From the IMG/VR virus record IMGVR_UViG_3300006175_000009, positions 1 through 64,000 of that record: 64,000 bases of DNA; one strand, written 5' to 3'. The notes under the pieces are model-generated. The model worked only from the letters and a program-made list of their open reading frames with translations. It did not search any database and was not told the origin of the DNA. This DNA comes from a virus. How positions within the stretch are numbered: position 1 is the stretch's first letter; every line of letters begins with the position of its first letter. Shown one piece after another: positions 11,272 through 19,012 of this stretch. The translations under genes and the position numbers were made by a program.

Positions 11272-11293
11272 CCTCAACGACAGGGTTGGCGCG

Positions 11294-11361
11294 TGGGACC
11301 GAGAGGAGTTGAACCTCTCTAACACCACCTGATCAGAGTGGCTTATCAACCGGGCGGTCCC
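11294..11361 (-). tRNA. tRNA-Ile (GAU)-like, reduced D arm
   Basis: Acceptor GGGACCG/CGGTCCC (7 bp), anticodon arm CCACT-CTGATCA-GGTGG with GAT in the anticodon place, T arm AGAGG-TTCAACT-CCTCT. Only about 13 bases lie between acceptor and anticodon stem, so the D arm is very short (68 nt in all). C37 is unusual. CCA is not encoded. Confidence 0.5.
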
Positions 11362-11720
11362 TCAAGGAAGTTGGTGTGGATTCGAACCACCGCCCGCCGT
11401 CGCGGAAGAGCCTGTCCTTATCAGTCGCTCTCAGCCTAGCCGTAGGTCAATCGGACTCGAACCGAACTACTGCGCCCTGCTCCAACTTCCAGTGAGGCAG
11501 AGGGAATCGAACCCTCAAGACGGGACGCGCGCGCCGTCTGCGAACCTGCTACCTCGGGGGCCTAGGAACCCCAGTGGACACCGCTGGAGTCGAACCAGCG
11601 CATTCTCAACCCTAGGACCGACTCGGCCGACGTCGGTTTGGTAACTAACCATCCTAGAGCGTGGGTTGAAAATCATCCCCGTGCCCAAGTGGGTTCCTCA
11701 GGAGTCGAACCTGAGCGCTT
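11362..11720 (-). other. Array of five tRNA-like elements, not resolved
   Basis: Five further T arms with correct loops are visible on the minus strand: GTGG-TTCGAAT-CCAC, TCGG-TTCGAGT-CCGA, GAGGG-TTCGATT-CCCTC, GCTGG-TTCGACT-CCAGC and CTCAGG-TTCGACT-CCTGAG. Acceptor partners are imperfect or badly spaced: GAGGTA/TGCCTC leaves 33 bases, GGGTTCC/GGAACCC leaves only 25, and GGAAGTTGG/CCAACTTCC encloses about 120 bases with two T arms. I could not fold any of them as a normal tRNA. They may be degenerate tRNAs or unusual tRNA-like RNAs. Confidence 0.5.
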
Positions 11721-11975
11721 ACCTTAGTTGCCCAGTCTCGGAACCCAACTCCGCGTCAACGCTCGGCAAAGCGGAGCGGAGAAGACCAAGCGGTTCCTTG
11801 ACTGGGAGGAGGTCACCCCCATGCCCAGGGGCAGGTAAGCCTTCCTCGAACCCATGGTCGGGCAACCCCGTGGAGAACCCGACACCAACAGCTTAGAACC
11901 TAGGTCGGACAAGTCCTTCCCTGGGATGGGCCTTAGCCCCCTGCGACGGACTCCCGGTCCCTTGCTGCTGAAGCA
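11721..11975. other. Leader of tRNA cluster 1, no gene seen
   Basis: No convincing reading frame or cloverleaf. One GGGTTCGAG word resembles a T loop but has no matching stem. It lies between the promoter at 11976-12005 and the first T arm, so it is probably transcribed spacer. Confidence 0.4.
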
Positions 11976-18086: not shown

Positions 18087-18126
18087 AAAAAGAAGGCCCT
18101 CCCAGGACGAGGATACCAGGAGGGCC
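18087..18126 (-). terminator. Rho-independent terminator of tRNA cluster 2
   Basis: GGCCCTCC and GGAGGGCC arms (18119-18126 with 18095-18102), then TTCTTTTT on the minus strand, directly after tRNA-Met. Confidence 0.9.
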
Positions 18127-18128
18127 GG

Positions 18129-18203
18129 TCGCTCAGGTTGGTCTCGAACCAACGCATCTCCCCGTTATGAGCGGGGTGCCTTAACCAGCTTGGCCACTGA
18201 GCG
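18129..18203 (-). tRNA. tRNA-Met (CAU)
   Basis: Acceptor CGCTCAG/CTGAGCG, anticodon arm CCCCG-CTCATAA-CGGGG with CAT, T arm GTTGG-TTCGAGA-CCAAC. CCA is not encoded. A CAU tRNA could also be the Ile2 type if C34 is modified. Confidence 0.85.
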
Positions 18204-18208
18204 AAGAG

Positions 18209-18287
18209 AGCGAACAGACGGAGTCGAACCGTGATCCACCTGGGTTGCAGCCAGGCCCCAGTTGCCCACTGAGTTAGGACTATCCGC
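18209..18287 (-). tRNA. tRNA-Cys (GCA)
   Basis: Acceptor GCGGATA with TGTTCGC (two wobble pairs), anticodon arm CCTGG-CTGCAAC-CCAGG with GCA, T arm with TTCGACT loop and one mismatch at its base. Discriminator is T. Confidence 0.75.
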
Positions 18288-18334: not shown

Positions 18335-18413
18335 TGGAGAATCTGGGAGTCGAACCCAGCTCCTGGAGCTTCCCTCGTGGGGCTTTGACTCCAGTCGAAA
18401 CCAACTATTCCCC
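18335..18413 (-). ncRNA. Minimal tmRNA-like (ssrA-like) RNA without tag
   Basis: The 5' end GGGGAAT-AGTTGGTTTCGACT and 3' end GGGTTCGACTCCCAG-ATTCTCC-A match the two ends of actinobacterial tmRNA (GGGG..GGTTTCGACT and TTCGA.TCCC..CTCCA). The acceptor pairs over 7 bp with G3:U70, the identity pair for alanyl-tRNA synthetase, and A73. CTGGAG/CTCCAG is like helix P2. Only 20 bases lie inside P2, where a tmRNA has tag ORF and pseudoknots; no anticodon arm with U33 can be drawn. Flanked by tRNA genes. Confidence 0.65.
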
Positions 18414-18472
18414 ATACCAGACACCTCTCGGGAAATCTCAAGGAGGTGGGCTTTTACTGTCTGATTGCCGCG

Positions 18473-18545
18473 AGCCCCCGACAGGATTCGAACCTGCGTC
18501 ACCGACTTACAAGGACGGTGCTAAACCAGCCTCAGCTACAGGGGC
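18473..18545 (-). tRNA. tRNA-Thr (UGU)
   Basis: Acceptor GCCCCTG/CGGGGGC, anticodon arm CCGTC-CTTGTAA-GTCGG with TGT (one T:T mismatch), T arm GCAGG-TTCGAAT-CCTGT (one G:T wobble at its base). Normal length. The 130 bases upstream (18546-18678) show no gene. Confidence 0.8.
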
Positions 18546-18678: not shown

Positions 18679-18746
18679 TGGACCCACGGAGAATCGAACT
18701 CCGCTGGAGTGCCTTGCAAAGGCTCCCTGTCACCTTGACCAGGCCC
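18679..18746 (-). tRNA. tRNA-Ala (UGC), reduced D arm
   Basis: Acceptor GGGCCTG with TGGGTCC, including the G3:U70 alanine identity pair; anticodon loop TTTGCAA gives TGC; T arm CGGAG-TTCGATT-CTCCG. The D region is only about 14 bases, so the gene is 68 nt. Confidence 0.7.
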
Positions 18747-18814: not shown

Positions 18815-18818
18815 TACG

Positions 18819-18901
18819 TACCGAAGGTGGGACTCGAACCCACAATCCCGAAGGCACTAGTTCCTAAGACTAGCGTGTATATCCAGTTCCACCACTCCGG
18901 C
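18819..18901 (-). tRNA. tRNA-Leu (UAG)
   Basis: Acceptor GCCGGAG/CTTCGGT, anticodon arm CTAGT-CTTAGGA-ACTAG with TAG, long variable arm TGCCTTCGGGAT, T arm GTGGG-TTCGAGT-CCCAC. A typical class II tRNA of 82-83 nt. Confidence 0.85.
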
Positions 18902-18917
18902 ATGTTCAGTTGTTGCG

Positions 18918-19012
18918 TGATCCGAGCAGGAATCGAACCTGCGTTACCCAGCCATCCTAAGCCTCAAGCCTAGGCATCAATCCGGGCGGCTTTCCATTTA
19001 GCCTATCAGACC
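18918..19012 (-). tRNA. tRNA-Ser (UGA)-like, long anticodon region
   Basis: Acceptor GGTCTGA/TCGGATC, D arm GGCT/AGCC, T arm GCAGG-TTCGATT-CCTGC. CCTAGG-CTTGAGG-CTTAGG gives TGA in a 7-base loop, but 13 extra bases lie between D and anticodon stems, so the fold is atypical and the identity uncertain. Confidence 0.55.

Follow-up and report, generated by a model that had tools for sequence, protein, structure and literature searches.

What can a virus do with a transfer-messenger RNA (tmRNA) gene that holds no message? The question is raised by a 79-nt element on the minus strand, at positions 18335-18413, of a 64,000-nt stretch of viral DNA (IMG/VR record IMGVR_UViG_3300006175_000009, positions 1 to 64,000). 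This stretch is called the window below; the virus record from which it comes has 78,117 bases. The initial annotation, made from the letters alone, had described a 79-nt tmRNA-like RNA with both ssrA ends and no tag reading frame; every detail of that description holds, and the strand, which it had not given, is minus. The element is a standard-order tmRNA gene cut down to its tRNA-like domain, the type known from mycobacteriophage DS6A, and is referred to here as a mini-tmRNA. Comparison with its relatives in other phages indicates that the fold, the G3:U70 pair and A73 are under selection throughout the family.

Sequence and Fold of the Element

The full minus-strand sequence of the mini-tmRNA is GGGGAAUAGUUGGUUUCGACUGGAGUCAAAGCCCCACGAGGGAAGCUCCAGGAGCUGGGUUCGACUCCCAGAUUCUCCA, and its parts are as follows.

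18335-18413, minus strand: mini-tmRNA, the tRNA-like domain of tmRNA without a tag frame (scores of RF00023 and of family model R2)
18407-18413, minus strand: acceptor stem 5' strand GGGGAAU, including G3; 7/7 pairs with 18336-18342
18395-18406, minus strand: D-loop region AGUUGGUUUCGA; its U-C-G-A corresponds to U17 C18 G19 A20 of Escherichia coli tmRNA
18388-18394, minus strand: P2 5' strand CUGGAGU; 7/7 pairs with 18363-18369; the stem covaries across the family
18370-18387, minus strand: P2 cap, made of an A-rich bulge CAAAG, a hairpin CCC-CACGA-GGG (one extra C) and AA
18363-18369, minus strand: P2 3' strand GCUCCAG, pairing with the P2 5' strand
18360-18362, minus strand: linker GAG, whose A is the counterpart of E. 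coli A334
18343-18359, minus strand: T-arm CUGGG-UUCGACU-CCCAG (5-bp stem), from the sequence and the cmscan alignment
18335-18342, minus strand: acceptor 3' strand AUUCUCC, including U70, and the discriminator A, from the sequence

A search with the tmRNA covariance model, proposed as a check in the initial annotation, matches RF00023 to the element at 50.5 bits (gathering cut-off 47; E 1e-18; cmscan). The alignment spans model positions 1-374 with 308 of them deleted, and all 19 of the 19 model pairs are intact. Model R2, built from the family without the window sequence, gives 61.7 bits (E 3e-14). The features of a tRNA-like domain are all present: a 7-bp acceptor stem (GGGGAAU/AUUCUCC) with G3:U70, the D-loop GGNUUCGAC (the D-loop region contains GGUUUCGAC), no D stem, and a T-arm. 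G3:U70 together with the discriminator A constitutes alanine identity. The place of the anticodon arm is taken by the P2 helix, CUGGAG/CUCCAG (6 bp, or 7 pairs counting the flanking U:G). The acceptor pair and the P2-like stem (CTGGAG/CTCCAG) had both been pointed out initially, and both can be read in the sequence. CCA is not encoded, as ACGU follows the last stem base.

Just 20 bases lie within the 6-bp P2, and the element has no tag reading frame with resume codon and stop; pseudoknots PK1-PK4 are absent (308/374 model positions deleted), as is an anticodon, all as first described. Nor is it a permuted, two-piece tmRNA, since its 5' and 3' ends are contiguous and in standard order. No further RF00023 match above the cut-off occurs in the 78,117-base record. 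A normal tRNA fold, named at the outset as the finding that would tell against a tmRNA origin, was not found: the tRNA model RF00005 has no match at the element at E<=1 and matches its neighbours and two weaker places, and ARAGORN calls tRNAs on either side of the element and none on it. The folding energy of the single sequence is unremarkable (z -1.1) and uninformative, so the case for a mini-tmRNA rests on homology and covariation.

Breadth of the Family

Two independent pattern scans and BLAST searches place the element in a widespread family. Scan 1 covered 2.9 million viral contigs (IMG/VR) with the pattern GGNTTCGAC, a gap of 25-55 and a fixed T-arm. Among the viral matches listed, the 7-bp acceptor is fully paired in 92 of 121; lengths of 58-59 are the most frequent, and the window's match is 58 long. 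When run on 257 Gb of bacterial and archaeal genomes, this pattern yields a 7-bp acceptor in 5 of 121 among the matches listed, with phage-like genes near three of those five. A mini-tmRNA on a Phycisphaerales contig (L218, 4824-5474 and 6928-6988) has a CI-like repressor nearby, so its carriers can include temperate phages or prophages. In scan 2, which was complete, the cap hairpin CCGCAYGCGGA and the T-arm were fixed and the acceptor, D-loop and P2 were left free; 88 places were read, with 61 distinct sequences. The two scans together find the same RNA in at least ~155 IMG/VR viral contigs. Extrapolation from their overlap (21/48 contigs fitting both) gives a rough estimate of ~350-400 carrier contigs in IMG/VR, a figure that covers only contigs fitting the two patterns. 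An exact-type pattern of the window's own P2 has no match in IMG/VR.

As a BLAST query, the window's own 79 nt finds T-arm or partial matches only, and family members were needed as queries. With these, full-length copies are found in Pontimonas phage phiPsal1 and in Streptomyces phages GiJojo, LuckySocke, pSt2308 and the Karimac/StarPlatinum group. Records of Streptomyces phages that match the Karimac form number 82. R2 also matches Streptomyces phage BRock (75.9 bits) and Stenotrophomonas phage Jojan60 (79.8 bits), whose cap, CCCCACGAGGG, is identical to that of the window. GiJojo, LuckySocke, Karimac and Jojan60 are culturable carriers.

Under the matches in named phages, annotations are blank, name a hypothetical protein or hold the edge of an adjoining tRNA, and an ARAGORN call overlaps just 3 of 73 mini-tmRNA loci. 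A tRNA gene lies within 1 kb at 17 of the 73; other loci have protease and capsid genes on either side or fall within sets of replication genes. Capsid and protease genes, replication genes and tRNA arrays all occur in the neighbourhoods, and no partner gene is fixed among them. What had been a one-off in DS6A is thus a recurrent phage gene, mostly missed by ARAGORN and left blank or called a hypothetical protein in the annotations examined.

Selection on Fold and Alanine Identity

Pair counts were taken from three alignments, A4, A5 and A6, as a fourth (A3, MAFFT) puts the 5' strand of the acceptor in the wrong place where the linker is longer. MAFFT also produced A4, with no model involved; fitting to the model, as in A5 and A6, favours structure. 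In A4 (36 sequences), 97.2% of pair cells hold standard pairs, against 70.8% after shuffling and 38-55% in slid controls; covariation scores 0.66, and 0.13 once the sequences are shuffled. For the whole structure in A6 (62 distinct sequences, mostly from scan 2) the scores are 0.75 and 0.15. A5 is a series of Streptomyces phages that have the element after a tRNA-Val gene, plus phiPsal1; here too the stems change by compensation (0.50 against 0.18).

The acceptor stem shows where the constraint lies. The third pair is G:U in 61 of the 62 A6 sequences, the lone G:C case (L339, 36 bits) being probably a non-member, whereas two-sided changes are seen at pair 4 in 29 sequences, at pair 5 in 25 and at pair 6 in 17. 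That G3:U70 stays invariant as the adjoining pairs drift suggests that charging is under selection. Among distinct scan 2 sequences, 59/61 have GGG...UCC ends and 59/61 a perfect 7-bp acceptor, and A73 is kept in essentially every member retrieved by cap hairpin and T-arm. A cap hairpin of at least 3 bp, preceded by an A-rich bulge, is found in 94% of 67 members and in 50% of shuffles.

Known Relatives

The nearest described molecule is the 'TLD only' tmRNA of mycobacteriophage DS6A (tmID 11587), as reported in PMC4131195 and PMC11915505. The former, citing Mao et al. 2009, states that a DS6A-like molecule strongly inhibits tmRNA whether chargeable or not, perhaps via SmpB titration; the latter attributes inhibition of endogenous tmRNA in E. 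coli to the DS6A form. DS6A tmRNA, as described there, and the window element share the tag-less form with only a tRNA-like domain. These papers report DS6A as a single case; the family of the window element is widespread. One such molecule was therefore already known; what appears to be new is that the molecule is widespread, has a conserved cap hairpin and is under selection for alanine identity. In the literature searched, with preprints and most subscription journals outside it, a phage family of such RNAs is undescribed.

Other tag-less or phage-borne tmRNAs are less close. Of the 97,179 sequences in the 2025 tmRNA database, 9 are classed as 'standard, no CDS' (PMC11915505). These, including plastid forms of ~65 bp, have the same gene order, tRNA-like ends and no tag frame, but only nine are listed; the phage family exceeds them by far in number, and its P2 is capped and covaries. 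Full-length phage tmRNAs (Streptomyces phage Forrest, Karimac, the mycobacteriophage Bxz1 group) have the same ends and alanine identity as the mini-tmRNA and, unlike it, a tag frame (tag ANSNFALAA in Forrest) and pseudoknots. In Karimac the full tmRNA is at 97752-98030, and the full and mini forms are separate genes. The two-piece tmRNA of Melnitz (PMC9004378) is also phage-encoded, but it is permuted and has a coding piece, and the window element has neither property. Tag-less mitochondrial tmRNAs of jakobids resemble the mini-tmRNA in being tmRNA-derived without a tag frame; they differ in being organellar and usually permuted, and in occurring alongside a mitochondrion-targeted SmpB.

Putative SmpB Contacts

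In E. coli tmRNA, U17, G19 and A334 contact SmpB, and G19C blocks binding (PMC8363625). Counterparts of all three bases are present in the window element. The search behind A3 and A4 required the D-loop motif, so its conservation is judged on scan 2 alone, where these positions were free: UCGA 17-20 is found in 50/59 sequences and the A334 counterpart in 56/59. A search of 50 carrier records, many of them fragments, detected no SmpB gene, and the control was positive in 10 bacteria; host SmpB would thus be needed.

Models for Function

The reading we favour, with a probability of about 0.5, is that the mini-tmRNA is functional: a tmRNA mimic without a tag that carries alanine, relies on the SmpB of the host and disturbs trans-translation. 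Host alanyl-tRNA synthetase would charge the RNA with alanine, and host SmpB and EF-Tu would bind the charged form, which could then enter ribosomes stalled at mRNA ends and displace host tmRNA. With no resume codon or tag to offer, its entry would end trans-translation; SmpB and stalled ribosomes would be diverted from host tmRNA, and nascent (phage) proteins might escape the degradation tag. We infer its transcription, charging, SmpB binding and ribosome entry, and its net effect on the host. Titration inhibits without a need for charging, yet alanine identity is invariant, which suggests a functional role for charging and therefore probably for ribosome entry; it is for this reason that an alanylated substrate competing with host tmRNA at stalled ribosomes is preferred. 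By analogy with the inhibition of the DS6A type (PMC4131195, PMC11915505), the decoy role proposed initially is plausible. The broader proposal is held with a little more doubt than belief: that phages of Actinobacteria, Proteobacteria and probably other hosts carry a large, unrecognised class of capped mini-tmRNAs, alanylated by the host, serving as tag-less substrates of trans-translation and kept by selection.

Several observations weigh against interference with trans-translation through host SmpB. A full tmRNA (~270-280 nt) and a mini-tmRNA occur together in Karimac, Yaboi, Riptide, EGole, Paradiddles and Mildred21 (6/6), which belong to the subfamily Boydwoodruffvirinae and its kin; other carriers checked have no second tmRNA above the cut-off.

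Streptomyces phage Karimac, mini-tmRNA and complete tmRNA: L276 5001-5078 and L297 753-1031

In the mini forms of this subfamily and its kin the D-loop is degraded (GGUGU-GAC, GGUAU-AAG) and UUCGAC is lost, while G3:U70 is kept and P2 and acceptor covary. Since the D-loop has decayed and the stems still covary, the mini form is, at least in this lineage, kept and of some use without the standard SmpB motif. Loss of the motif beside a complete tmRNA agrees with the view that sequestering SmpB would not suit a phage that has a tmRNA itself; a full tmRNA beside a mini form with a degraded motif is nevertheless unpredicted by a simple sponge model. The reported inhibition, being independent of charging, leaves the invariant G:U pair unexplained. 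Finally, conservation is uneven. The expectation that related phages would retain the element is borne out in relatives elsewhere and fails among close kin, where occurrence is patchy: four genomes of the genus Hiyaavirus that were examined have no tmRNA match.

Rescue might be blocked, or it might be done without a tag. In the latter case alanylated mini-tmRNA and SmpB would take over the peptide and free stalled ribosomes, leaving phage proteins unmarked. Invariant G3:U70 and A73, which imply that charging matters, agree with this, as do mitochondrial tmRNAs that lack a tag, are conserved beside SmpB and are thought to be active in rescue (PMC11915505). Bacterial rescue without a resume codon may fail, however, because Helicobacter pylori could not grow on a tmRNA with a stop in place of the resume codon (PMC2584231), and we consider tag-less rescue unlikely. 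It is rather improbable that the RNA acts as an alanyl donor or decoy outside trans-translation, through non-ribosomal alanyl transfer or by occupying a defence that targets tRNA or tmRNA, such as the CoCoNuTs, for which SmpB-like domains are predicted (PMC11090510). In its favour, no feature is more constant than alanine identity, which survives even where the SmpB motif has decayed, and the neighbourhoods hold no fixed protein partner; but no link to an alanyl-transferase or to defence was seen, and the bases that contact SmpB are kept in most members. The same retention of UCGA and of the A334 counterpart would suit an RNA that simply folds, binds SmpB and titrates it, charging being irrelevant, as would the inhibition by a similar molecule, chargeable or not, described in PMC4131195. 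Such pure titration is improbable given that G3:U70 and A73 are invariant while adjoining pairs drift by compensation, and that in one subfamily the D-loop decays and alanine identity persists.

Two explanations deny the element a tmRNA-like role. A non-functional deletion relic of a tmRNA gene, the alternative offered in the initial annotation, could account for the four Hiyaavirus relatives without the element and the one relative with a diverged copy in the same place. Unrelated relics are not expected to show covariation and a shared cap hairpin, however, and here 19/19 window pairs are intact, covariation is far above that of shuffles and slid controls, the capped architecture recurs in a large set of phages, and stems change by compensation within a single syntenic lineage. 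A relic is thus very improbable, and of the initial interpretation this alternative lacks support; tmRNA ancestry, alanine identity, the SmpB-contact bases and the absence of tag and anticodon stand. A chance likeness to tmRNA in an ordinary or degenerate tRNA might be suspected from the position in a tRNA cluster of a phage with other irregular tRNA-like genes. It has next to no likelihood and is refuted by the lack of a tRNA-model match at E<=1 against a tmRNA match at E 1e-18.

An alanylated mimic that competes with host tmRNA would, if real, amount to RNA-based viral control of ribosome rescue, beyond an isolated curiosity. With so strict an alanine identity, the mini-tmRNA probably receives alanine and is put to use. 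Is ribosome rescue turned off or rerouted by an RNA mimic that phages encode, and for what reason do some carriers have a complete tmRNA as well?

Genomic Setting and Closest Kin

The element lies among tRNA genes, as first noted, with ARAGORN tRNAs flanking it on both sides.

18127-18203, minus strand: tRNA-Met(CAU), same cluster (ARAGORN)
18472-18545, minus strand: tRNA-Thr(UGU), same cluster (ARAGORN)
18818-18901, minus strand: tRNA-Leu(UAG), same cluster (ARAGORN)
18917-19012, minus strand: tRNA-Ile(GAU), same cluster (ARAGORN)
18096-18113, minus strand: terminator-like hairpin and T run downstream of the cluster (consensus scan; weak, ~1 expected by chance)

The window DNA polymerase shares 52-55% identity with the enzyme of Hiyaavirus, a genus of Streptomyces phages, and the gene order Cas4-like exonuclease, tRNA gene(s), primase is common to both; the host is therefore likely to be actinobacterial. 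Single window proteins as queries gave no relatives in protein searches; relatives came from searches with alignments that included Hiyaavirus proteins. One more distant relative, record G002, has a diverged candidate in the same place, between Cas4 and primase (R2 35.4 bits, E 8.8e-7), that keeps G3:U70, P2 and the cap hairpin and has lost UUCGAC.

Other tRNA-like sequences stand out in the window and in a relative. Two on the minus strand were missed by ARAGORN: 18210-18287, by eye a tRNA-Cys(GCA), and 18680-18746, by eye a tRNA-Ala(UGC) with G3:U70. A second cluster at 11290-11790 (minus strand) has about six tRNA-like T-arm motifs (near 11294, 11378, 11453, 11503, 11586 and 11701), some with 7-bp acceptors, just 57-68 nt long and with irregular D and anticodon parts; none is called by ARAGORN or Rfam. 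In another window relative (record G013, L030 1300-1690), tRNA 3' halves adjoin 5' halves in unusual order and one tRNA is interrupted by extra sequence; these tRNAs might be split, permuted or decayed. The tRNA-Ile(GAU) gene at 18917-19012 (minus strand) owes its length of 96 nt to ~27 bases in its anticodon-loop region; these could fold into a separate hairpin and may represent an insertion or something like an intron.
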